Source: Bacillota bacterium
GTDB taxonomy: Bacteria > Bacillota > SHA-98 > UBA4971
Length of the DNA: 58,017 nucleotides
Reading direction: 5' to 3'
NCBI GenBank assembly: GCA_024653485.1
Contig: JANLFY010000015.1
Location: forward strand, 1 to 58,017
The notes beneath the pieces were generated by a model that worked only from the letters and a program-made list of their open reading frames with translations, was not told where the DNA came from and made no database searches. Position numbers and translations under genes: made by a program. Shown here piece by piece: positions 28,200 through 43,412 of this stretch. Within the stretch, counting starts at the first letter, position 1; each line of letters begins with the position of its first letter.

Positions 28200-28853
28200 A
28201 TGGTTGATGTTCTCATCAAGGGCGGACCGGTGATGATCCCACTGCTTATCTGCTCGGTCCTGGCGCTTGCCGTAGCCTTCGAACGCATCCTCTACATGCT
28301 CAGGACGTCGCAGGACCCTGAGCGAGCCTTGCGGCTCATTTCGGTGGCCATCGATCGTGACAGGATGGCCGAGGCTGTAGCTGCCGTACAGCAGCTGCGA
28401 GGGCAGGTCGGAGCGCTAGCCACAGTGGCGCTCACCAACGCAAACCGGCCCAAGGCAGAGCTTGAAGCGGAAGTCAAGGCCGCCGGAGAGCGTGAGGCGT
28501 TCCTCCTCGAGAGTCACCTTCCGATGCTGGACATGGTGGTAACGGTTGCCCCACTCCTGGGGTTGCTCGGCACGGTCACGGGGCTGATCAAGAACTTTCA
28601 GGTCCTTGCGAGGACGCCGCAGATGCTCGAAGCGGGGGCGCTCTCCGCAGGCATTGCCGAGGCCTTGATCACGACGGCCGCTGGGCTTGTCATCGCCGTC
28701 CCGGCGTTTGTCCTCCACGTGTACATCACAGGGCTCATAGACAGGAGGCTCGTCGAGATGAGCGAGTTTGGGTCGAGCCTGGTGAACCTCCTTGCGGAAA
28801 GGGTGAGCGAAGGTGGAATTTCGCAGAAGCAGCCGCAGAAGGCCTCGAGTTGA
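28200..28853 (+). CDS. exbB: MotA/TolQ/ExbB proton-channel family protein (ExbB-like)
   Basis: Inner-membrane stator subunit that uses the proton-motive force to energise TonB, 217 residues. Three membrane segments are visible, at about 9-28, 107-130 and 150-175. The family signature APLLGLLGTVTGLIKNF is near 118-134 and the conserved EALITTAAGLVIAVPAF near 155-171. ATG 28200 has GGAGG about 8 nt upstream. The exbD reading frame starts 41 nt before its stop. The cluster with exbD and a TonB-like gene distinguishes it from flagellar MotA and supports an ExbB role. Confidence 0.9.
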   Translation: MVDVLIKGGPVMIPLLICSVLALAVAFERILYMLRTSQDPERALRLISVAIDRDRMAEAVAAVQQLRGQVGALATVALTNANRPKAELEAEVKAAGEREAFLLESHLPMLDMVVTVAPLLGLLGTVTGLIKNFQVLARTPQMLEAGALSAGIAEALITTAAGLVIAVPAFVLHVYITGLIDRRLVEMSEFGSSLVNLLAERVSEGGISQKQPQKASS

Positions 28854-29235
28854 TCTAGTTCCCATGGTGGACGTGATGATGTTCCTCATCGCGTTCTTCA
28901 TGCTGTTTACGACGTTTCGCTCAAATCCCGCGGGACTAACCGTGAGGCTTCCGAAGGCGGCGACGGCGACTCCACAGGAATCCGCGGGCATAACAGTCGT
29001 GATAGACAGGGTTGGAGACGTCTACCTTGAAAACCGCAGGATGACCCTGGACTCGCTGCGACAAGACATCGAAAAGAGCGTTCAAGCGAATCCGGACCAG
29101 TTCGTGATCATCAGGGCGGACAGCAATGCCAGGTACTCCAAGCTGGTCGAGGTCATGGACGCTGCAAGGCTGGCTGGAGCCACTAGACTTGCGCTCGCCG
29201 CGGAGAGAAAGCGTGTGGAGGGAGCGCAGGAATAG
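28813..29235 (+). CDS. exbD: ExbD/TolR-family protein
   Basis: Partner of ExbB in the proton-driven energy-transducing complex, 140 residues with a single membrane helix (about 15-36). That helix carries the essential aspartate at residue 20 (VDVMMFLIAFFM). A periplasmic domain follows, with GDVYLENRRMTLDSLRQDI and VIIRADSNARYSKLVEVMDAAR, typical of ExbD. It starts at GTG 28813 inside exbB. The overlap of 41 nt implies translational coupling. Confidence 0.9.
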   Translation: MEFRRSSRRRPRVDLVPMVDVMMFLIAFFMLFTTFRSNPAGLTVRLPKAATATPQESAGITVVIDRVGDVYLENRRMTLDSLRQDIEKSVQANPDQFVIIRADSNARYSKLVEVMDAARLAGATRLALAAERKRVEGAQE

Positions 29236-29316
29236 GACGGGCCTGGAGACACGAACGACATGACGGAGTCGGGACGATGAGAGCGGAGGGCCAGGAGGGA
29301 AAGGACGGTGGCGTAG

Positions 29317-30438
29317 GTGGAGCGTAGCAAGGGGAGGTCGAGGATGGGGCTGGCTTTCATGGTTTCGCTCCTGGTTCACGCTGCCGTGATACTGCTCGTG
29401 CCGGTAGTGAGCCCTGGAGGAGTCGTGGTGTTCCCGGTTGAGTTCGGTGAGATAGAACAGGCGTTCGAGGCTCCGAGGGAAGGGAGTCAGGACGGACAAG
29501 TGGCCGCAGCGCCGCGACCGGGCTCAGCAGATACCGCTTCGGGGACTCAGGGCGACGGGTCAGAAGCACAAGTCGCCGCGACGGAGACGCCCAAACCGGA
29601 GCCCAAGCCCCAGTCGAAGACCGCTCCCAGGCCGGCACCCGAATCGAAGGCCGAAGGGACGGTTTCGCTCAAGCCCGCTCCCAAAGTGGAACAGAAGACG
29701 CCCGCACCTGGGAAGGCGCAGGTTTCTGCCTCTCAGGAGAGCGAGAAGTCCCCCAAGGCAGGGGCCGTGTCCAGCGTGAAGGCGACGAATGGCGACGGCC
29801 AGTCTGAGCCCTCCGCGAAACCCACAGCTCCGCGACGTGAAGCCGCTGGCGCGGGCGAGACGCAGGGGAACGGGACGCCCACGGGGGCAGGGGGGGCGAC
29901 CAGTGAGAGCGTTCTCACGGGTAAGTCTGGAGAACCGATGCCACTTGCGTCGGCAGGGTCGTCCCAAGGAGCCGGGGCGGAGGCATCGGGCACGACCCCG
30001 GCACCCGGCCCACCTGCTGGAGCGGGCCAGGGCGCGGCAGCTGCGACCGACGCGACGGCAGGGGGCACGGGGCCCGTTGAGCCCGAGACGTCTTCTTCGG
30101 CCGCCGGCCCTGCGAAACCGCGTGGCGAGGAGTTTGGCTCGGGGCGAGCGCTCGTCTTGTCAGGCGTTCCGCCGGTCTACCCGAAGAACGCCCAGAACGA
30201 AGGGGTCGAGGGCGTAGTTGCGCTGGCGGTGAAGGTGGACTCGGTTGGCGTCGCAACGAGCGTCGTCGTGATACAAGGGTCAGGCGATCCACGCCTGGAT
30301 GAAGCGGCTATGCGCGCGATATCACGCCTATGGCGCTTCCAGGCCATTGGGTGGCCGTACGAATTGTCGGTCCGAGTGACCTTCAGGGAGTCGTCAGTGG
30401 AGGTAGCATTTGGCGGGGTGAGGATCCTGGGCGACTGA
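29317..30438 (+). CDS. tonB: TonB-like energy transducer
   Basis: Predicted periplasm-spanning protein, 373 residues. It has a single N-terminal membrane anchor (about 10-31) with a histidine in the helix (SLLVHAAVIL), as in TonB. A Pro/Lys-rich then Ala/Gly/Ser-rich linker (about 45-280) follows. The TonB C-terminal domain starts near 284: PPVYPKNAQNEGVEGVV, then LDEAAMRAISRLWRF. TonB normally couples ExbB/ExbD energy to outer-membrane receptors, so its presence argues for an outer membrane. Start is GTG 29317. No TonB-dependent receptor gene lies in the window. Confidence 0.88.
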   Translation: MERSKGRSRMGLAFMVSLLVHAAVILLVPVVSPGGVVVFPVEFGEIEQAFEAPREGSQDGQVAAAPRPGSADTASGTQGDGSEAQVAATETPKPEPKPQSKTAPRPAPESKAEGTVSLKPAPKVEQKTPAPGKAQVSASQESEKSPKAGAVSSVKATNGDGQSEPSAKPTAPRREAAGAGETQGNGTPTGAGGATSESVLTGKSGEPMPLASAGSSQGAGAEASGTTPAPGPPAGAGQGAAAATDATAGGTGPVEPETSSSAAGPAKPRGEEFGSGRALVLSGVPPVYPKNAQNEGVEGVVALAVKVDSVGVATSVVVIQGSGDPRLDEAAMRAISRLWRFQAIGWPYELSVRVTFRESSVEVAFGGVRILGD

Positions 30439-30482
30439 GGGCGAGTGCGGCATGTCGCCAAGTCGCATGGGAGGGTTGACGA

Positions 30483-32525
30483 GTGACCAGTTGGAAAGCC
30501 AAGATGACCCGCCCGTTCGTTGGGGTTGCCCTGACGGTCGTCGCATGCATGGGGGGCTTCATCGCGCCGTGGCCTGCCGCGATGAAGGTCGAGGGGACGG
30601 GCTTGAGCTCGGTGCCCAATCTCGAGATTGGCAACCAGTACATAAAGGTGTTTGTGAACGCGACGGACGACGGCACCGCGAGATTCGCCGTGGACTCCAC
30701 AGGTGGAGATCCACTGAACGATGCGGACGATGACAAGCCGCTCGTGTACGGTCGGCCTTGTCCCTGGACATCCTACACCACCGTGAGGGTGGACGGCGAG
30801 GATTACGTCTTCGGCGGTCGAACGCAACGTCGACCCGGAGGAACAGGCAATTACGGCACTGAGGTCGTCGCACCCGCAGTGTCCGGCGACAGCATCGTCG
30901 CTGCCTGGAGGTTCGGCGACATAGAGGTCTCTCAGGTGCTCTCCATTGTGAGGAGCACCACCACGGGGCTCTTGGACACCGCGAGGATCACGTACGTGGC
31001 TACGAACTTGGGCTCCATTGCGCATGAGGTGGGGCTTCGCATGATGCTCGACACAATGCTCGGAGCGAATGACGGAGCGCCTTTTCGCGCGGGGGACAGG
31101 GCGATTGTCTCCGACACCGTATTGGGGTCAAACGAGATGCCCCGCTTCTGGCAGGCGTTCGACTCGCTGTCAAGCCCTTCCGTGACGAGCCAGGGGACGC
31201 TAGGAGGGTCTGAGGTAACGACGCCCGATCGCGTGCTTTTCACGAACTGGGGGAGTCTTGCCGACGGAGTCTGGGATACCGACGTCTCACCCGGTCGAGA
31301 CTTCACTAGGACGGGTGAGTACGAGCTTGACAGCGCGATTGCGATGTACTGGGATCCCAGACCTCTAGCTCCCGGAGAATCGATGGAGTTCACGACGCTC
31401 TACGGAATGGGAGGCATCAGTGTAGCGCCTGGAGTGCTTTCCATAGGGGTGACGTCGCCCGCCGAGGTCACGTTGGGCAGGGACAGGCCGGCGACCTTCC
31501 CCGTGGTGGCCTACGTTGAGAACTCGGGTCCCACGGTTGCGCTGAACGTCCGTGTCGCTATCGAGCTTCCCAAGGGGCTTGCGCTCGCTGCCGGAGAAGA
31601 GGCGGGGCGGGCCGTAGGCGACCTCCGGCCGGGAGAGACCGCGCAAGTCGCATGGGAGATTGTGCCCGACGTACTTGGACAGGCGGACCTCGAGTACTCG
31701 GTGGCGGTGGAGGCCGAGAACGCCGAGGCCAACCGGGTGAGACGCTCTGTAAGAGTCCTCGCACCCCCCGACTTGAGGGTTAGAGTGGAGGCGGCGCCGG
31801 AGTTCACTGTGAAGGATGACCAGTTCGATCCCGGTTTGCTGCGTGTGAAGGCGGTTATCGAGAATGTGGGCGGCGCACCCGCATATGGGGTGAAGGCGGT
31901 GCTCGCCCTCGGCCAGGGAATCCGGCTCGCGGAGCGAGAGAAGGCATCGAGGTTCCCGAGCACGGTGTCCCCGGGTGAGAGGTGGGCGGAGGTGTGGCAG
32001 ATAGCACCCTCCGGGCAGTCGGGGGATTTCGATTACGTGGTCAAGGTTGAGTCGCGCAGCGCAGAAGAAAGGTTCGCGACTGGACGGGTGCGTGTGCCTG
32101 AGCTTGCTTCACGAATCCTCGTGCAGGCGCCAACGGTGATGCGGGAGGCGGGCGAGTTCTTCACCGTGGACGTGGTGGGACGGAATCTGGCGGGTCTTGA
32201 GGAGATGCGCCTGGACGTGCGGTTTGATCCCTCTATTCTCGAGGCCGTCTTTGTATCCAAGGGAACGGCTTTCGTGGACGAAGACGCGGTGGCCTCCTGG
32301 GAGGAGGGGGTGATCGACAACTCGACGGGTGTTGTGAAGGGAGTCTCAGGACGGTTCCGGAAGGCGCGGGACGTCACGGGCATCCTCGCGACCATCAGTT
32401 TCCGCGCGAGGACTCCAGGGGCGTGCCACATCTTGCTGGAGAACGTGTTGCTCGCCCGAAGCGGTGGGGCGGCTCTTCCGGTCTCTGTGCAAGGCGCCTC
32501 CGTGACAGTGCGAAACCACGACTGA
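30483..32525 (+). CDS. large exported protein with CARDB-like repeats and a C-terminal cohesin-like domain
   Basis: I recognise domains but not a named family. The 680 residues begin with a signal peptide (hydrophobic about 12-27). An Asp-rich DPLNDADDDKP stretch, which could bind calcium, opens a beta-rich N-terminal region (about 40-310). Two beta-sandwich segments with CARDB/NEW3-like features (about 320-540) follow; an example is VENSGPTVALNVRVAIELPKG. The last 130 residues (VRFDPSILEAVFVSKG, ISFRARTPG) match the cohesin-type fold. GTG 30483 has GGGAGGG 6 nt upstream. It lies between tonB and the SLH protein, so it is probably an extracytoplasmic adhesion or scaffold part of the same envelope module. 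Substrate or partner unknown. Confidence 0.75.
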   Translation: MTSWKAKMTRPFVGVALTVVACMGGFIAPWPAAMKVEGTGLSSVPNLEIGNQYIKVFVNATDDGTARFAVDSTGGDPLNDADDDKPLVYGRPCPWTSYTTVRVDGEDYVFGGRTQRRPGGTGNYGTEVVAPAVSGDSIVAAWRFGDIEVSQVLSIVRSTTTGLLDTARITYVATNLGSIAHEVGLRMMLDTMLGANDGAPFRAGDRAIVSDTVLGSNEMPRFWQAFDSLSSPSVTSQGTLGGSEVTTPDRVLFTNWGSLADGVWDTDVSPGRDFTRTGEYELDSAIAMYWDPRPLAPGESMEFTTLYGMGGISVAPGVLSIGVTSPAEVTLGRDRPATFPVVAYVENSGPTVALNVRVAIELPKGLALAAGEEAGRAVGDLRPGETAQVAWEIVPDVLGQADLEYSVAVEAENAEANRVRRSVRVLAPPDLRVRVEAAPEFTVKDDQFDPGLLRVKAVIENVGGAPAYGVKAVLALGQGIRLAEREKASRFPSTVSPGERWAEVWQIAPSGQSGDFDYVVKVESRSAEERFATGRVRVPELASRILVQAPTVMREAGEFFTVDVVGRNLAGLEEMRLDVRFDPSILEAVFVSKGTAFVDEDAVASWEEGVIDNSTGVVKGVSGRFRKARDVTGILATISFRARTPGACHILLENVLLARSGGAALPVSVQGASVTVRNHD

Positions 32526-32589
32526 CGATGAAGAGGCGGAACACAACGGGCGGACTACAGCGGATCCTAGCTGTATTGGGGGGAATGCA

Positions 32590-33807
32590 ATGAGCACGAA
32601 AACGCGCATCGGCCTACCTGCGAAAGCGCTGTGCATCATAGTGATGTCGGTGACGCTCGTCGCCGTGCCTTTCGCAGGGATGGCGGCCGAAGTAAAGGAC
32701 GTTCCGAAGGATCACTGGGCATACCAGGCCGTGAAGATGCTCGTGGACAAGGGCTATCTAGCGTTGTACGGAGACGGAACGTTTCAAGGCGGAAGATCGG
32801 TCGACAGGTACACGCTTGCCGTAGTGATAGCGAAGATCCTCAACGAGATCGAGACGGGGAAGGTCGGCGCGACGCCCGAAGACGTCGAACTCCTCAGAAA
32901 GCTGTCCGGGGAGTTTCGGCAGGAACTCGTCCAGGTAGCGAACGATCTGGGCGTTTTCAAGAAATCCCTTGACGAGCAGGCGCGAGCTCAGGTCGTCATC
33001 AAAGAGGACCTCGCCCGGCTCACCTATACCCAAGGTCAGATGAGGGCCGAAGTGCAGAAGATGATCGCGGAAATCACCGCATCGACGGCAAAGAGCGTGG
33101 CCGCCGCAGACCAGAGAGCCCGTCAGGCCGAGGAGGGGCTTTCCGCGAGGATAGATGAGAACGAACGCGAAGTCAGCCGCTTGGCAGATGAGCTCGTGAA
33201 GGGGTTTGACAGCGCCCAGGCGTCCATCGCGGACCTCGCCGGTCGAATGGACGCGGCCGACAAGGGCCTTTCCGGCCGCCTAGATGCTCACGACGGAAAG
33301 CTCTCGCAGCTCGACGAGGATCTTTCCGCGGCGATCTTGCGCTTGAGCACCGTTGAACCCCAGCTCGCGCTGGTCACGGAGGGGCTGGTGACTGCCAAGC
33401 GCGACCTCGGGAAGAGCATCGAGACCCTCAGTCTGGGTCTCTCCGCGACCAACGACGACCTCCTCGCAACCAAGAACGGGCTCTCCGCTTTGCAGGAGGA
33501 CGTGAGGAGACTGCAAGCCGAGGTCGGCATGAGCGTGGCCGAGCTCAACGCGGCTGACGCAGAGCTGGAGCAGAGCTTGGGTGAAGTCGCCGGGAAGGCG
33601 CTCACGCTTGAACAAGGCCTTTCGACGGAGCGCGCGGCGAGACTGTCGACTGACACGTCCCTCCAAACGGCGCTTGCGGACCTCGCTGCCGACTTCGCCG
33701 CGTACAAGGCGCAGACCGCCAAGGACGTGGACTCTCTGCGGAAGGAGAACGGCCTCCTCAAGGTGCTCCTGGCAGCCGTGGCCGTGCTCGGCCTGGTGAT
33801 CAAGTAA
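32590..33807 (+). CDS. SLH-domain coiled-coil protein with C-terminal hydrophobic helix (Omp-alpha-like)
   Basis: 405 residues. A signal peptide (about 12-30) is followed by one SLH domain (DVPKDHWAYQAVKMLVDKGY... about 36-85), which in this family binds secondary cell-wall polymer. Then comes a continuous helical coiled coil rich in Ala, Glu, Lys and Leu (about 95-385, quasi-repeats such as GLSARIDENE and GLSGRLDAHD). It ends in a 16-residue hydrophobic helix at the extreme C-terminus (VLLAAVAVLGLVIK). This order and length match Thermotoga Omp-alpha, which tethers the outer envelope to peptidoglycan. ATG 32590 has GGGGGG 6 nt upstream. The 3' end overlaps the convergent phosphatase gene by 8 nt. 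Confidence 0.85.
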   Translation: MSTKTRIGLPAKALCIIVMSVTLVAVPFAGMAAEVKDVPKDHWAYQAVKMLVDKGYLALYGDGTFQGGRSVDRYTLAVVIAKILNEIETGKVGATPEDVELLRKLSGEFRQELVQVANDLGVFKKSLDEQARAQVVIKEDLARLTYTQGQMRAEVQKMIAEITASTAKSVAAADQRARQAEEGLSARIDENEREVSRLADELVKGFDSAQASIADLAGRMDAADKGLSGRLDAHDGKLSQLDEDLSAAILRLSTVEPQLALVTEGLVTAKRDLGKSIETLSLGLSATNDDLLATKNGLSALQEDVRRLQAEVGMSVAELNAADAELEQSLGEVAGKALTLEQGLSTERAARLSTDTSLQTALADLAADFAAYKAQTAKDVDSLRKENGLLKVLLAAVAVLGLVIK

Positions 33808-36659: not shown

Positions 36660-36729
36660 GCATCGGCGGAGATATACTGCGACTGGGAACACGCGCACGG
36701 CTTTGCCGGAAGGTTCGGGGGGCTTGGTG

Positions 36730-37563
36730 ATGAGCTTCCTCACACGGGTTGAACGGGCGATCGAGGAGGTAGTCGAGGGCATCTTCCGCCGTGCCCGCGA
36801 CGCCACCCATCCTGTGGAGATAGGGCGGTACCTCGTGCGCGAGATGGAGGACGAAAAGAGGATCTCGGTGTCGCGTACCTACGTGCCCAATCGCTACAGG
36901 GTGAAGCTGCACGCAAGGGATGTCGATTACCTTGGGCCGCTCGCGCGCACCTTATCGCGCGAGCTCTCGGGCCACGTAATCGCACGCGCACGTAGGCAGG
37001 GTTATTCATTCGTAGGGCGGGTAGATGTGGAGTTCGAGGCGGACGAAGACGCGAAACCGGGGGACATACGGGTCGACGGGCTGTTCGTCGAGGACGACGA
37101 GGCCGGCGGTGAAGAAGACGGCGGCTCGACCCGTCGGTGCCCGGTCCTTGGGGAAGTCCACGACTATGGGTCGGCGCGGGCTGACCTGAAGCTGGCGGCC
37201 CAGCTACCGGATGGTTCAGGCGCTCCAGTCGCACGTCAGGACTCTCCGGGCCACCTGGAACGAGGTCAGCCAGGGTTTGCTCATCTTGCGCTGATGTATG
37301 GGACGAGCAGAGAGCGAGTGGTTCCGCTCTCGGGCGAGAGGATGATAGTGGGTCGGTCGAGCTCGTGCCACATCGTCATCGAAGATGCCGGCGTGTCCCG
37401 GCGTCACGCCGAGATCGGGCTGGAGTCCGGTCGTTTCTACGTGGCGGATCTTGGCAGCACGAACGGCACGTACGTCAACGGCAGGAAAGTGTCGCGGCAC
37501 CTCCTTGCCGATGGGGACGTGGTGAGTTTCGGCAAGGTCGCGGCCCGCTTCAGGGAGGCGTGA
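36730..37563 (+). CDS. DUF3662-FHA domain protein (FhaA-like)
   Basis: Phosphothreonine-binding adaptor of 277 residues. The N-terminal DUF3662 domain (about 1-120; VEGIFRRARDATHPVEIGRYLVREME) is followed by a poorly ordered acidic linker and a C-terminal FHA domain (about 190-277). The FHA has GRSSSCHIVI, SRRHAEI and STNGTYVNG, which supply the phosphopeptide-binding loop. The FHA-FHA-PP2C-FtsW-PBP-kinase order is shared with Actinobacteria and several GC-rich Bacillota. It is therefore a likely target of the PASTA kinase at 41460. ATG 36730 follows a GGGGGG stretch. Confidence 0.88.
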   Translation: MSFLTRVERAIEEVVEGIFRRARDATHPVEIGRYLVREMEDEKRISVSRTYVPNRYRVKLHARDVDYLGPLARTLSRELSGHVIARARRQGYSFVGRVDVEFEADEDAKPGDIRVDGLFVEDDEAGGEEDGGSTRRCPVLGEVHDYGSARADLKLAAQLPDGSGAPVARQDSPGHLERGQPGFAHLALMYGTSRERVVPLSGERMIVGRSSSCHIVIEDAGVSRRHAEIGLESGRFYVADLGSTNGTYVNGRKVSRHLLADGDVVSFGKVAARFREA

Positions 37564-37566
37564 CGG

Positions 37567-37995
37567 GTGGCGTTCGTTTGGTTCCTCGCGCGCGTCGTCC
37601 TCGCGGGTCTCACGTGCTTGTTTCTCTACCGGGCGGCGAGGGCGGGGGGCCTCGTGAGAGGCGGCGATCGGCAGCCTCGCGTGCGGGAACGGGGAATGAG
37701 CCAAGGTAGACTCGAGGTCGAGACCGGACCCGGGGTCCCGTCACCAGGTGAGTGGTTCGACCTGGGAGGTGTCACAGTCCTCGGGCGGTCGCCCGAGAGC
37801 GACATAGTGATCCTCGACCCGTATGTGTCGGCGAGACACGCCGAGATCGTCCTCTCGGGCTCGGGGTTCTTCGTGCGCGATCTCGGAAGTGCCAATGGGA
37901 CTTACGTGAATGGCAGAAGACTCGGCCGCAAAAGGCTCCTGCGGAGGGGAGACCGGCTGGAAGTTGGCGACACCGTATTTCGGTTCCGGGGGTGA
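37567..37995 (+). CDS. membrane-anchored FHA domain protein (FhaB-like)
   Basis: Short protein of 142 residues with an N-terminal membrane segment (about 2-22), a basic linker, and an FHA domain (about 60-142). The FHA contains LGRSPESDIVI, SARHAEI and SANGTYVNGRR, enough for phosphothreonine binding. GTG 37567 has GGGAGG about 7 nt upstream. It begins 3 nt after the stop of the other FHA gene. FhaB-like proteins in Actinobacteria bring the kinase and division or peptidoglycan proteins together. Confidence 0.88.
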   Translation: MAFVWFLARVVLAGLTCLFLYRAARAGGLVRGGDRQPRVRERGMSQGRLEVETGPGVPSPGEWFDLGGVTVLGRSPESDIVILDPYVSARHAEIVLSGSGFFVRDLGSANGTYVNGRRLGRKRLLRRGDRLEVGDTVFRFRG

Positions 37996-38000
37996 GCGTT

Positions 38001-38708
38001 ATGCAGGCCTCTGCCCGTACGGATGTGGGTCTTGTCAGGTCCGTTAACGAGGACGACTATCTCGTCGGCGACGGAATCTTCGCCGTTGCCGACGGTCTCG
38101 GCGGCCATGAGGCGGGTGAGATCGCAAGCCGGATGGCCATCCGCATGTTGAGGGAGTTCAGACCTCCTGGTGACGGAGACCCAGGGGTTGCCCTGGCGGA
38201 GGCATTGGAGGGAATCAACCGTGCCGTGTACAAGAGATCCGTGGACGATCCTTCGTGCGAAGGGATGGGCACGACCCTTACCGCGTTGCTCATTGCGGGC
38301 GACAAAGCATACATAGGCCACGTGGGTGACAGCCGGGCGTATTTGATTCGAGAGAACAAGATATGCAGGCTCACCGAGGACCATTCCATCGTCGGCGAGC
38401 TCATCCGCATGGGCCTGCTTTCAGAGCCCGAAGCGCGGGCTCATCCACAGCGCAACCTCCTCACTCGTGCAATCGGCACGCAACCGGACGTGGAAGTCGA
38501 GGTGGGCTATTGCAAGCTCGCGGGGCGTGACCGGTTCCTCCTCTGCACCGATGGTCTATCCGGCGCGGTGGACGATTCTGAGATTTTGAGAGTAATGGCT
38601 TCCGCCTCCGACCCCGGGTCGGCCGTGGACCAGCTAGTGGAGCTGGCGATGCACGGAGGAGGTCACGACAATATCACCGCTGTAGCGGTGTTCTTGGACT
38701 TGCCATGA
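38001..38708 (+). CDS. prpC: PP2C-family Ser/Thr phosphatase (PrpC/Stp-like)
   Basis: Metal-dependent phosphatase that removes phosphates put on by the PASTA kinase, 235 residues. The metal-binding motif VADGLGGHEAGE is near 28-39, GTTLTALLI and GHVGDSRAYLI follow, then LLCTDGLSGAVD and GGHDNITAVAV. All aspartates of the PP2C site are in place. ATG 38001 follows GGGGGTGAG. Its stop overlaps the next start in ATGA, so expression is coupled to the FtsW/RodA protein. Confidence 0.93.
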   Translation: MQASARTDVGLVRSVNEDDYLVGDGIFAVADGLGGHEAGEIASRMAIRMLREFRPPGDGDPGVALAEALEGINRAVYKRSVDDPSCEGMGTTLTALLIAGDKAYIGHVGDSRAYLIRENKICRLTEDHSIVGELIRMGLLSEPEARAHPQRNLLTRAIGTQPDVEVEVGYCKLAGRDRFLLCTDGLSGAVDDSEILRVMASASDPGSAVDQLVELAMHGGGHDNITAVAVFLDLP

Positions 38709-40033
38709 TGCGCGAGATGCACCAGGCGACCTGGGATCGGGATGAACCGGGTTATTCCGATACACTGCTTGCCACGGCCCTCCTCCCGGGCATGATGGGC
38801 ATGGTCATGGCCACGGTGGCGTCGGGGAAACCCGATCGATCGCCGGGATGGGTTGTGGTCGCGAGCTTCCTCGGAGTGTTTCTTGCGTGTCACGTGTTGT
38901 TGGGCAGAGGGCGCCGCGCTGGTGACCCCGTGATCTTCTCGCTGGTGGCTTTTCTCTCCGGTCTGGGTTTGGCCGAGGTGCTCAGGCTCGACCCAGGACT
39001 CGCTGTGAGGCAGGTGGGACATCTCGCGGTGGGGGCTGGCCTCACTTGGATGCTGGTGAGGTATACTCCAGGGATCCGGGTGCTCGAGAGATACAGGTTC
39101 ATCGCGGCTGCGACGGCCTGCTTGCTCCTGGCGAGCACAATAGCGTTCGGTGTCGAAGTGGGCGGCGCCAAGTCGTGGCTCGACCTCGGGTTCGTTGCCG
39201 TTCAACCGTCGGAGGCCGCCAAGATCCTCATGGTATCGTTCTACGCAGGCTACTTGAAGGACACGAAGGCGCTCTTGAGGAGATCATCAAGGAGGCTCCT
39301 GGGCCTACCCCTGCCTGACCTGTCGTACTCAGGGCCCCTTGCCATGATGTGGGCTCTTGCCCTGGTCCTTCTGGTGTTTCAGAGAGATCTCGGCGCAGCT
39401 CTGCTGTTTTTCGGCGTCTTTCTGCTGATGATGTACGCGGCCTCGGGGAGGGTTTCATACGTGCTGGGTGGGGCGGCTCTCTTGGCCGTGGGCGGATTCG
39501 CGTGTTCCTGGATGTTTCCGCATGTGAGGGCGAGGTTCGTCGTGTGGCTCAACCCATGGCGGTTCGTGGATTCGTCTGGATACCAGAATGTTCAGTCCAT
39601 GTTCGCCGTGGCGGCGGGTGGGCTCATCGGGGTGGGACCTGGGCGCGGGATGGCGCACGTGATCCCGGCCAGCGCTACGGATTTCGTCTTTGCCGCGATC
39701 TGCGAAGAGATGGGGCTTGTGGGAGGGCTCGCCGTGATCGCCTCGTACGCGCTCCTAGTGCACAGGGGGCTTCTCTGGGCCTCCCGGTCGAGCGACGACT
39801 TCAGGGCGCTCCTGGCGGCTGGCCTGACATGCCTCATCGGGCTGCAGTCATTGACGATCATCGGCGGCGTGCTCGGGCTGGTGCCGCTCACCGGCGTGAC
39901 TTTGCCGTTCGTAAGTTACGGCGGTAGCTCCATGATCACTTCCTTTGTCGCACTCGGGCTCCTCTTGCGAATCGCATGGGAGGAGCGCGAGGAGCGGGCA
40001 AGAGAGGAAAGAAGGGTGGGAGTTGACGGATAG
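38705..40033 (+). CDS. FtsW/RodA/SpoVE-family peptidoglycan glycosyltransferase
   Basis: SEDS-type polytopic membrane enzyme that polymerises lipid II glycan strands, 442 residues with about ten to twelve helices. The family signature GVTLPFVSYGGSSMITSFVALGLLL lies near 397-421. The conserved aspartate-containing region (ATDFVFAAICEEMG) is near 322-335. It is encoded directly before a class B PBP, the normal functional partner. Whether it serves division (FtsW), elongation (RodA) or sporulation (SpoVE) cannot be decided here. Confidence 0.92.
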   Translation: MMREMHQATWDRDEPGYSDTLLATALLPGMMGMVMATVASGKPDRSPGWVVVASFLGVFLACHVLLGRGRRAGDPVIFSLVAFLSGLGLAEVLRLDPGLAVRQVGHLAVGAGLTWMLVRYTPGIRVLERYRFIAAATACLLLASTIAFGVEVGGAKSWLDLGFVAVQPSEAAKILMVSFYAGYLKDTKALLRRSSRRLLGLPLPDLSYSGPLAMMWALALVLLVFQRDLGAALLFFGVFLLMMYAASGRVSYVLGGAALLAVGGFACSWMFPHVRARFVVWLNPWRFVDSSGYQNVQSMFAVAAGGLIGVGPGRGMAHVIPASATDFVFAAICEEMGLVGGLAVIASYALLVHRGLLWASRSSDDFRALLAAGLTCLIGLQSLTIIGGVLGLVPLTGVTLPFVSYGGSSMITSFVALGLLLRIAWEEREERAREERRVGVDG

Positions 40034-41441
40034 CCTCCGCCGGATCTTCATCGCATTTCTTGCCGCATTCGCCGTGCTCGCGGCGAGGCTGATCATCGCG
40101 GGTATATTGCAGGCGCCGGACCTCTCCGCCCACCCAAGAAATCCCAGGCTTGCGGAGGCGAGGCGTGACATCGTCCGCGGAGGGATATATCTCTCTGGAG
40201 GCGAACTAGTGGCGAGGGACAGCGCGCCCGGAGGGCCGAGGCTGTATGCGGGTCCGCCCGGGCTCGCGCACCTCATCGGGTACGAAGACGCGAGGTACGG
40301 CACTGCGGGGCTCGAGGCCAGCTACAACTCTGAGCTGCTCGGGCTGGGCGGGGAGAGCCTGCTCGCGAGGATCGCGAGGGACGTCTTCTCCAGAGGCGGC
40401 AAGCGAGGAAACGACATCATCCTGACGGTGGATGCCACCGTGCAGCGAGCCGCGGAGCGAGCGATGGCAGGCCGCCGAGGCGCTGCTTGCGCGCTGGATC
40501 CCAGGACCGGCGCGGTTCTCGCAATGGTGAGCAACCCGGGGTTTGCGCCCGAGCGCATAGCGTCCCAATGGGAGAGCCTCGTGAAGGACGAGACCAGCCC
40601 GCTCTTCAACAGGGCCACTCTCGGCCTCTACCCGCCTGGCTCCGCCGTTAAGCCGCTGATAGCCGCGATAGCTCTCTCTTGCGGGGCGGTGGGCGCGGAT
40701 GAAGTCTTCCGGTGCGAAGGCGCGATAGGGGTGGGGGTCCGAGACGACGACGATCGGAAAGTGGCGTGCCCTGACGGCACTGCCCACGGCGACGTGGACC
40801 TCGCTTCGGCCATCGCTCTTTCGTGCAATGTCGCCTTTGCCCAGATCGGCTGGCGCGCCGGCTCGGAAAAGCTGTATAATGGTCTTCGGGGCTTCCATGT
40901 TGCAACCGCCTTGCCCTTTGACGTGCCGACCGCCGCGGGGACCATCACCGCGGGGGCTCCCGCTCTCGACAGGGCATCCGTGGCCCAGGTGTCTATCGGC
41001 CAAGGCGCGCTCGCGGTGAGCCCTCTCCAGATGGCGTGCGCCATTGCGGCGATCGGCAATGGCGGTGTGATGCGTCGACCGCATGTGGTCCGCGAAGTGC
41101 GTTCCCCTGACGGAACGCCTCTTCGCAGAGTGACTGGTGCAATCTTGGGAGTGCCGGCCTCCGCGAGCTCCGCACGGCTGGTCGCGGAAATGATGGTGGA
41201 GGCGGTTTCGAGAGGGACTGCTCGAGCGGCTGCCCTGCCGGGAGTGAGGGTCGCGGGCAAGACTGGCACGGCCCAGAACCCCCACGGAGAGCCCCATGCG
41301 TGGTTCGTGGGGTTCGCGCCAGCGGAGAAGCCGCGTTGCGCGGTGGCGGTCGTGATAGAGAATGGAGGGTCAGGCGGACGTGTCGCGGCGCCGGTGGGGC
41401 GTGAAATCCTGCGTGCGGCGCTGGGGAGCAGCTGGCGGTGA
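40023..41441 (+). CDS. class B penicillin-binding protein (transpeptidase, PbpA-like)
   Basis: Peptidoglycan transpeptidase of 472 residues. A single N-terminal membrane anchor (about 8-27) is followed by a short pedestal (about 28-135) and the transpeptidase domain. Active-site motifs are SxxK at S207 (PPGSAVKP), SxN at 267 (LSCNVAF) and KTG at 413 (AGKTGTAQ), all intact. The protein is shorter than PBP2 or PBP3 of Escherichia coli and similar to actinobacterial PbpA. TTG 40023 is preceded by GGGTGGGAG and overlaps the ftsW/rodA gene by 11 nt. The two form a SEDS-bPBP pair under kinase/phosphatase control. Confidence 0.92.
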   Translation: MTDSLRRIFIAFLAAFAVLAARLIIAGILQAPDLSAHPRNPRLAEARRDIVRGGIYLSGGELVARDSAPGGPRLYAGPPGLAHLIGYEDARYGTAGLEASYNSELLGLGGESLLARIARDVFSRGGKRGNDIILTVDATVQRAAERAMAGRRGAACALDPRTGAVLAMVSNPGFAPERIASQWESLVKDETSPLFNRATLGLYPPGSAVKPLIAAIALSCGAVGADEVFRCEGAIGVGVRDDDDRKVACPDGTAHGDVDLASAIALSCNVAFAQIGWRAGSEKLYNGLRGFHVATALPFDVPTAAGTITAGAPALDRASVAQVSIGQGALAVSPLQMACAIAAIGNGGVMRRPHVVREVRSPDGTPLRRVTGAILGVPASASSARLVAEMMVEAVSRGTARAAALPGVRVAGKTGTAQNPHGEPHAWFVGFAPAEKPRCAVAVVIENGGSGGRVAAPVGREILRAALGSSWR

Positions 41442-41459
41442 CGCAGGCGAGGTGAGACC

Positions 41460-43412
41460 ATGACAGAGGAGGTTCTCGGGAGAAGGTACACCATCCTCTC
41501 GAGGGTGGGCGAGGGCGGCATGGCCGAGGTGTACAGGGCACGCGACTCCGTGCTCAACCGGATCGTCGCCATAAAGGTCTTGCGGCCTCAATTCGCGTCC
41601 GACGAGGAATTCATCGAGAGGTTCCGCAGGGAAGCGCAGGCCGCGGCGAGTCTCTCCCACCCGAACATCGTGAGCATATACGACGTGGGTCATGATGGCG
41701 ACCGCTATTACATCGTCATGGAGTACGTAAGCGGCAAGAGCCTGAAGGACCTCATCCGCGAACAGGGGCCGCTCCGCCCGGAGAGGGCGGCTTGGATAGC
41801 CTCGCAGATCCTTGCCGCGCTCGACCACGCTCACAAGAACAACATCGTTCATAGGGACATAAAGCCTCACAACATCCTGGTGACCCCCGAAGGCAGGGTG
41901 AAGGTGACCGACTTCGGCATAGCCCGAGCCAAGAGCACTTCTGCGCTCACTGAGACGGGCACCATAATCGGCACGGTGAACTACTTCTCTCCGGAGCAAG
42001 CAAGGGGCGAGGCGGCGGGCGTGGGCTCCGACGTATACTCGCTTGGCGTGGTGCTGTACGAGATGCTCACAGGCAGGGTGCCGTTTCGTGGCGACACGCC
42101 CATTGCCATCGCCCTTCAGCATCTTCAGGGCACCGCCATCCCTCCTTCGGAGCTCAATCCCAGGGTGCCGGCTGACCTCAGCCGGGTCGTGATGAAAGCC
42201 CTCGAGAAGGATCCCGCTCGCCGTTACCAACAGGCCAGGGAGATGATGAGGGCTCTGGAGAAATACTCCTCTGTTCCGGCTGGTGAGGAAGTCGAGGAGG
42301 AGACTGCGGTCGGGGCAGGAGGAAAAGGACAGGGCGCACCCGAGGCGCCCACAGAGGTATTCAGGGTGCCTCAGGTGACTCGCGGCGGAGGCTCGAAGGG
42401 AGTGGATGATACTCTGGCAAGACCCGCCAAGGCTTCGCACGGCCCCGGCAAGGCCATCTTGGCCATCATCGCGTTCACGGTGGCTCTCCTCGTCCTCGCG
42501 GCAGTGGCCGTCATCAGGTTGCCCGAGTGGTTGTACGTTGAGGAGGTGCGAGTTCCCGACTTCACCGGGAAGACTCTGGACGAGGCCAGAATCATAGCGG
42601 AACAAGCGGGCCTGCGTCTGGATGAGCCTGATAGACGCTACGATGATTCGGCCCCGCCGTACTCGGTGATCGCCCAACGGCCTGCTCCGTACGAGAAGGT
42701 CAAGCTCAATAGCAGGGTTACTCTCGTGGTGAGCATCGGAAAAGAGATGGTGGAGGTGCCGGATCTCAAGGGCATGGACCTCCGTCAGGCTCTTCTGGAG
42801 CTCGAGCGGTTGGAGCTCAAGGCGGGGAGCCAATCAGAGGAATACAGCTCGGAGATCGAGCGCGGGCGAGTGCTCTCGCAATCGCCAGACGCCGGGAGGC
42901 GCGTCGAGAAGGGCGTTCCCGTGGACATCGTGCTCTCGGCGGGCCCTCAGCCGAACGTCGTAGTCGTGCCCGAACTTGTGGGCACCACAGTCTCCGAGGC
43001 CGAGTCAATGCTGGCATCGGCGGGGCTCGTGAGAGGCGATGTCGTCGAGCAGCCGCGCGAAGGCGAGGATCCCGGCATAGTCCTCAGTCAGGTCCCCGCG
43101 GCTGGGCAGGAAGTGGAGCGCGGCACACCTGTGAACCTCGTGGTGTCCGCCGGATCGAAGGAACCGTCCTCGATTCTCGACGCCATAACTCCCGTGTCCA
43201 CGATTGTCACGATCCTCGTGCCTCCGGGCGCTGACCAGCAGGAGGTCAGGATCAGAATAAACGACTACTACGGTGAAAGGGACTACTACGTCGGGATGCA
43301 CTCCCCAGGCGAGCGCGTCGAGAAAGAGGTGAACGCGTGGGGCAGGAAGGTCAGGATCAGGGTGTACATCGCCGGGGTGCTGTACGAGGACGAGTGGGTT
43401 CCCAAGGGATAG
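41460..43412 (+). CDS. prkC: PASTA-domain Ser/Thr protein kinase (PrkC/PknB family)
   Basis: Membrane kinase that senses muropeptides and controls growth, division and (in spore-formers) germination, 650 residues. The kinase domain (about 10-270) has VGEGGMAEVY, VAIKVL, HRDIKPHN and the DFG loop. A juxtamembrane linker is followed by one helix (about 331-352), three PASTA domains (about 358-570) and an additional C-terminal domain of about 80 residues. That last part is rich in Tyr and charged residues (INDYYGERDYYVGMHS) and resembles a small beta-sandwich. The phosphatase at 38001 and FHA proteins are in the same cluster. Confidence 0.94.
   Translation: MTEEVLGRRYTILSRVGEGGMAEVYRARDSVLNRIVAIKVLRPQFASDEEFIERFRREAQAAASLSHPNIVSIYDVGHDGDRYYIVMEYVSGKSLKDLIREQGPLRPERAAWIASQILAALDHAHKNNIVHRDIKPHNILVTPEGRVKVTDFGIARAKSTSALTETGTIIGTVNYFSPEQARGEAAGVGSDVYSLGVVLYEMLTGRVPFRGDTPIAIALQHLQGTAIPPSELNPRVPADLSRVVMKALEKDPARRYQQAREMMRALEKYSSVPAGEEVEEETAVGAGGKGQGAPEAPTEVFRVPQVTRGGGSKGVDDTLARPAKASHGPGKAILAIIAFTVALLVLAAVAVIRLPEWLYVEEVRVPDFTGKTLDEARIIAEQAGLRLDEPDRRYDDSAPPYSVIAQRPAPYEKVKLNSRVTLVVSIGKEMVEVPDLKGMDLRQALLELERLELKAGSQSEEYSSEIERGRVLSQSPDAGRRVEKGVPVDIVLSAGPQPNVVVVPELVGTTVSEAESMLASAGLVRGDVVEQPREGEDPGIVLSQVPAAGQEVERGTPVNLVVSAGSKEPSSILDAITPVSTIVTILVPPGADQQEVRIRINDYYGERDYYVGMHSPGERVEKEVNAWGRKVRIRVYIAGVLYEDEWVPKG

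Follow-up and report, generated by a model that had tools for sequence, protein, structure and literature searches.

A block of five genes, exbB, exbD, tonB, coh and slhcc, lies at 28200-33807 of the window, the 58,017-nucleotide stretch of DNA analysed here. The same gene order recurs in diderm Bacillota, where it tracks Omp85 and never stands beside a TonB receptor, and this upholds the view of the first-pass annotation that the genes form a dedicated envelope module; that the module energises and tethers an outer layer, as the annotation also held, we infer. We put it at about an even chance that the five genes specify a proton-driven trans-envelope module that is Tol-Pal-like in its working and has different outer parts.

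The window (assembly GCA_024653485.1, contig JANLFY010000015.1, 1-58,017 forward) comes from a Bacillota bacterium (GTDB SHA-98; UBA4971) whose 3.0 Mb genome is 98.9% complete. A Bacillota host had been proposed, along with a Bacillota-type order of recA-recX-rny-ymdB-spoVS; the genome shares its phylum group with G054, a genome in which a contig match points to Candidatus Frackibacter, and recA, rny and ymdB are confirmed. All five genes claimed for the block are present, run in the same direction and are closely spaced:

28200..28853, + strand: exbB, ring subunit of the motor's proton channel (ATG at 28200, stop at 28853; MotA_ExbB 9e-26)
28813..29235, + strand: exbD, motor subunit with the membrane residue Asp20 (ExbD 2e-30; overlaps exbB)
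29317..30438, + strand: tonB, with an N-terminal membrane helix, a long variable linker and a TonB C-terminal domain (TonB_C 7e-16)
about 30169-30387, + strand: TonB C-terminal domain within tonB (TonB_C 7e-16)
30483..32525, + strand: coh, exported 680-residue protein, fixed between tonB and slhcc (alignment A1; AlphaFold2; 88 of 398 Bacillota genomes)
30606..31472, + strand: N-terminal domain of coh, a mutarotase-like beta-supersandwich (predicted structure, fold matches)
31473..32102, + strand: middle of coh, two Ig-like (NEW3/CARDB-type) domains (Pfam, AlphaFold2 model)
32103..32519, + strand: C-terminal cohesin domain of coh (2xdh, Z 17.9; cohesin profile 6e-13)
32590..33807, + strand: slhcc, exported protein with SLH, coiled coil and C-terminal hydrophobic helix (SLH 3e-6; layout of relatives)
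32695..32808, + strand: SLH motif, presumed wall-binding end of slhcc (SLH match)
33754..33804, + strand: C-terminal hydrophobic helix of slhcc, presumed outer-membrane anchor (hydrophobic stretch in 97 of 98 relatives)

A survey of ExbD loci in 27 relatives, where TonB at some distant loci was too divergent for tblastn, found the order exbB-exbD-tonB-coh-slhcc throughout, the exceptions being two loci that adjoin TonB receptors and a third that a contig end truncates. The coh alignment was then scanned against 84,980 species genomes, 242 of which matched. Among the best 80 of these 242, which include Limnochordia, Halanaerobium, Orenia, Halonatronum, Natroniella, Halanaerobacter, Candidatus Frackibacter and Hydrogenispora, the complete set of five runs in order along a single strand at 70 loci and contig ends truncate the remaining 10, so the block is more than a product of chance. 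At all 80 the order is unbroken as far as the contigs extend, and the median intergenic gaps in this best 80 of 242 are -12, 15, 10 and 4 bp, a spacing as in an operon. Recurrence in independent genomes rules out a chance neighbourhood, a local oddity and an assembly artefact; the first-pass annotation had asked whether the order recurs in Limnochordia or other diderm Bacillota, and it does, Halanaerobiales included. No description of the five-gene block was found in the literature searched, which was largely open-access.

The association with an outer membrane is close. A phylum sample of 398 Bacillota genomes has full-length coh in 88, Omp85 in 101 and both in 87 (Fisher p=1.5e-71, relatedness ignored), and the lone coh genome without Omp85 is a fragmented assembly. 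Thirteen of the 14 genomes that have Omp85 and no coh belong to two families (f31 and f61), which are presumably Negativicutes, since these are the other diderm Bacillota lineage known; the fourteenth is 84% complete and comes from a family that otherwise carries coh. The exbD gene lies directly upstream of coh in 83 of the 88 coh genomes. In four of the other five, coh starts at most 0.7 kb from the start of a contig, and the fifth is G120.

The annotation had noted that no TonB receptor is attached to the genes, and a wider search agrees. The window's own genome holds no TonB-dependent receptor, by the barrel (PF00593) or the plug (PF07715), and a receptor lies within 8 kb of the module exbD in none of 83 cases, as against 20 of the 26 other exbD genes in coh-bearing genomes; some of the other six may belong to modules that a contig end has split from their coh. 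PF00593 receptors occur in 26 of the 88 coh-bearing genomes and are missing from the other 62. Receptor and second exbD are found together in 19 of the 88, receptor only in 7, second exbD only in 2 and neither in 60 (p=1e-11). Because the module exbD lies away from receptors and a second exbD tracks them, the module motor is, on the evidence of gene positions, set apart from the uptake motors. In G006, a genome of the same family as the window's own, plug domains occur in proteins of about 1000 residues (G006:C50:2544-2873 and G006:C127:4533-4859), at which the PF00593 barrel was not matched. Since this genome has a single ExbD, its module motor might serve a receptor as well.

Judged from residue conservation, the proton path of the module motor is shown to be intact; Thr125 and Thr159 of ExbB are invariant in the 83 module copies, as is Asp20 of ExbD in every module copy aligned. 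The membrane helix of TonB carries an S-x3-H motif in 84 of 94 relatives. The best NCBIfam models for the motor proteins are TolQ and TolR, both far below cut-off, and the C-terminal domain of the rod is of TonB type, not TolA type (TonB_C 7e-16). A tree of ExbB and ExbD groups all 83 module copies with eight receptor-linked copies (support 0.93) and places the copies from the two families lacking coh in a separate clade (support 0.99). Pairwise divergence of coh correlates with that of ExbBD at r=0.93, and the values for the SLH and TonB domains are about 0.85; these figures fit a long co-inheritance of the module parts, and shared species history alone also yields high correlations. The eight receptor-linked ExbB (L236-L243) are short open frames of about 150-175 residues, and they cluster with the module motors rather than with other receptor-linked motors.

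The outer membrane that exbB, exbD and tonB had been taken to imply is borne out by the rest of the genome, where BamA/Omp85 and LPS genes are both found, so that an objection from their absence falls away. A single Omp85/BamA gene is clustered with genes for TamB, an OmpH/Skp-like protein, LpxD, LpxA, LpxB, LpxC and LptA, and with one for a 778-residue protein that has an LptD_N domain. Adjoining this cluster are genes for SLH proteins of 952, 910 and 572 residues whose final strand closes with a Phe and which, by this layout, are OmpM-like tether-porins. Judged by its genes, the organism possesses an outer membrane, and in cultured Limnochordia an outer membrane has been seen by electron microscopy (PMC11456536). 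Pal was not found in the genome, because its sole OmpA-domain protein is MotB, encoded beside MotA. Two LptD/OstA-like proteins are encoded in the outer-membrane cluster, at L202:14349-16121 (590 residues) and L070:830-3166 (778 residues).

The product of coh had been called cohesin-like. The name holds for the terminal domain; the protein consists mainly of a mutarotase-like domain plus Ig domains. Pfam finds NPCBM_assoc (4e-8) and, weakly, Cohesin, the latter confirmed by 18 of 21 family members, and an AlphaFold2 model based on 21 relatives (pLDDT 85.7) presents, from N to C terminus, a beta-supersandwich, two Ig-like domains and a cohesin. Modelled alone, the N-terminal domain matches GH94-type and galactose-mutarotase domains with Z of about 16-17, over about 200-230 residues at 8-14% identity. 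It is the most conserved part of the protein, with more than 50 invariant positions among 21 sequences, and this concentration suggests one conserved ligand or partner, a common fold being in itself no proof of function. The predicted cohesin superimposes on 2xdh with Z 17.9 (rmsd 2.1 over 128 residues), and its region matches cohesin chains by profile (6e-13). Since the alignment contains no conserved lipobox, coh is assumed to be a soluble exported protein; within the window's own genus a Cys is present in the signal region, and lipidation is possible there. Roughly a dozen Bacillota genomes that have no Omp85 encode very large exported proteins with the N-terminal domain at their start; of these proteins one runs into YD/RHS-type repeats and another ends in SLH-like repeats (giants at L244:1954-8172 and L247:1571-8308). 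The domain would appear to be reused in cells apparently lacking an outer membrane.

In slhcc a signal peptide is followed by a single SLH motif (3e-6), and the protein ends in a hydrophobic C-terminus. Its long coiled coil is read from the sequence itself and from weak matches to coiled-coil families. Among 98 relatives the hydrophobic stretch lies at most 6 residues from the C-terminus in 97, usually 0-1 residue away. The helix is often just 13-15 residues long and in most relatives has no charged cytoplasmic tail; 79 of the 98 tails reach a 19-residue hydropathy of at least 1.6, and the helix could equally be placed in the inner membrane instead of the outer. The gene sits apart from the main outer-membrane cluster, and the barrel-ending SLH proteins are encoded elsewhere; no YadA-type anchor was found in the genome. 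Viral contigs searched with slhcc gave one match, to the SLH region alone. At one locus (L092) an additional SLH gene lies upstream of exbB, about 2.9 kb upstream of coh, and the usual downstream one is also present.

The first-pass annotation had likened slhcc to Omp-alpha of Thermotoga, and the comparison, made by description, stands as one of layout alone: SLH, long coiled coil and short hydrophobic C-terminus. As described, Omp-alpha (OmpA1) runs from an SLH through a coiled coil of 316 residues to some 20 hydrophobic residues at the C-terminus; it is placed in the outer sheath and is paired with a porin gene (PMC3387000). In contrast, slhcc always shares its operon with coh and a Ton motor, and the T. 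maritima control genome gave no ExbD match. OmpM of diderm Bacillota shares the SLH end and the coiled-coil stalk, but slhcc ends in a helix, without a barrel.

A mechanism can be proposed from these parts. By analogy with Ton and Tol, ExbB-ExbD in the inner membrane would use the flow of protons to move TonB, and the C-terminal domain of TonB would extend across the periplasm. To judge from its predicted folds, coh may stand where TolB does, as an adaptor in the periplasm that would bind a glycan, a protein partner or both, at the wall or outer membrane, through its mutarotase-like domain and its cohesin. The layout of slhcc would suit a wall-to-outer-membrane tether in the place of Pal: the SLH end would bind the wall, the coiled coil, probably trimeric as in OmpM, would bridge the gap, and the C-terminal hydrophobic helix would lie in the outer membrane, as proposed for Omp-alpha. 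TonB could then pull on coh, slhcc or both, so that the tether is loaded, released or repositioned and the outer membrane is held to the wall or drawn in at division.

The likeness to Tol-Pal lies in the equal number, order and kind of parts (tolQ-tolR-tolA-tolB-pal), namely a two-protein proton motor, a trans-periplasmic rod, an exported adaptor and a wall-binding tether, and in the association with an outer membrane, not with receptors. The differences are in the parts themselves. The rod ends in a TonB-type domain; coh is a predicted supersandwich with Ig domains and cohesin, whereas TolB is a beta-propeller; and slhcc combines SLH, coiled coil and C-terminal helix, whereas Pal is an OmpA-domain lipoprotein. 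Because TolB and Pal are absent, the module is not a member of the Tol-Pal family, though by analogy it may work like one. Several observations count against such a reading. Neither coh nor slhcc shows a recognisable conserved strand of the Ton-box kind, the rod has its TonB-type rather than TolA-type domain, and OmpM-like proteins already give the genome a passive tether. The lengths of TonB and slhcc, moreover, would be expected to co-vary if both bridge the same gap, and co-variation is absent: a matching of tether and TonB lengths that appeared among nearest pairs (Spearman 0.52, p=0.001) disappeared with independent contrasts (r=0.13, p=0.35), which were no better than the coh control.

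Likeness to the Ton system is seen in the homologous motor and TonB, with the proton path and the membrane-helix motif conserved. The module differs in having two fixed extra partners, coh and slhcc, and in its separation from receptors, with none beside the 83 module exbD genes and none in most coh genomes. A survey published in 2025 found Tol-Pal confined to Gracilicutes and, among diderm Firmicutes, detected Ton in Negativicutes only (PMC12204202); as far as gene content goes, the present data extend that range among diderm Firmicutes. In 2009 a TonB/ExbBD set without receptor was noted in Halothermothrix orenii and, in the passage concerned, left unexplained, with coh, slhcc and a wider distribution unmentioned there (PMC2626281). 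There too exbB, exbD and tonB occur together, and this Halanaerobiales genome probably carries the system described here.

Four readings of the block deserve to be weighed. The one that we favour, at about even odds, is the Tol-Pal-like module proposed above. Its boldest form, which we hold at somewhat short of even probability, is a force-transducing system not described before and going back to the ancestor of diderm Bacillota, two families (presumably Negativicutes) set aside, that would couple proton motive force to an SLH-based tether between wall and outer membrane and so do the job of Tol-Pal. It is unlikely, at roughly one chance in five, that the module is instead an uptake system, in which an ordinary Ton motor would work with an outer-membrane gate other than a recognised TonB receptor (for example OmpM-type or another beta-barrel), coh would bind substrate through its sugar-enzyme-like domain and slhcc would position coh. 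The TonB-type C-terminal domain speaks for uptake, as do the fold of the coh N-terminal domain, common among carbohydrate-active proteins, and the 7 of 26 receptor-bearing coh genomes without a second exbD, in which the module motor may serve receptors; but receptor-bearing genomes usually have a second, receptor-linked exbD (19 of 26), and a single copy with fixed partners over very diverse lineages and lifestyles suits a housekeeping role better.

More doubtful still is an inner-membrane stator or surface-force machine, with the slhcc helix in the inner membrane and the SLH domain pinning ExbBD-TonB to the wall, as MotB does for flagella, to supply force for gliding, secretion or display of coh. 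ExbBD-type motors power gliding and secretion in other bacteria, which counts in its favour, and a hydrophobic helix at the C-terminus could halt a Sec-exported protein in the inner membrane; 79 of the 98 tails reach the hydropathy given above. Against this stand the shortness of the helix, its place at the very C-terminus and its want of a charged cytoplasmic tail, together with the layout shared with Omp-alpha, which is described in the outer sheath (PMC3387000). We regard as highly improbable a cellulosome-like display, with coh a scaffold for dockerin enzymes, slhcc its anchor and the motor genes chance neighbours. A scaffoldin would likewise have a cohesin, and that of coh is clear in fold and sequence match, with an SLH protein adjoining; however, a search for Dockerin_1 gave no match in the window's own genome or in 59 of the 61 genomes covered, and coh and the motor genes keep together at about 80 loci (the best 80 of 242).

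The receptor-less kind of TonB can now be linked with coh and slhcc, both conserved and uncharacterised, in a block that goes with the outer membrane throughout Bacillota and has cultured hosts in Halanaerobium and Orenia. The energising of outer membranes outside Gracilicutes, and a possible step in the diderm-to-monoderm transition, thereby become directly testable. If the force-transducing reading is true, the module would be a second, independently assembled way to energise an outer membrane, and losing it could have been one element in the passage of Bacillota to the monoderm state.

Some 3 kb downstream of the module, at 36703-43412, lies a cluster of genes for FhaA, FHA, PP2C, FtsW-RodA, a penicillin-binding protein and a PASTA kinase, of a type best known from Actinomycetota. 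This neighbourhood fits an envelope role, by gene association, and is not general. The rlmN gene, which lies between the module and the FhaA cluster, is near the module in 12 named loci among the best 80 of 242, and rlmN and FHA genes are also near it in the closest families.
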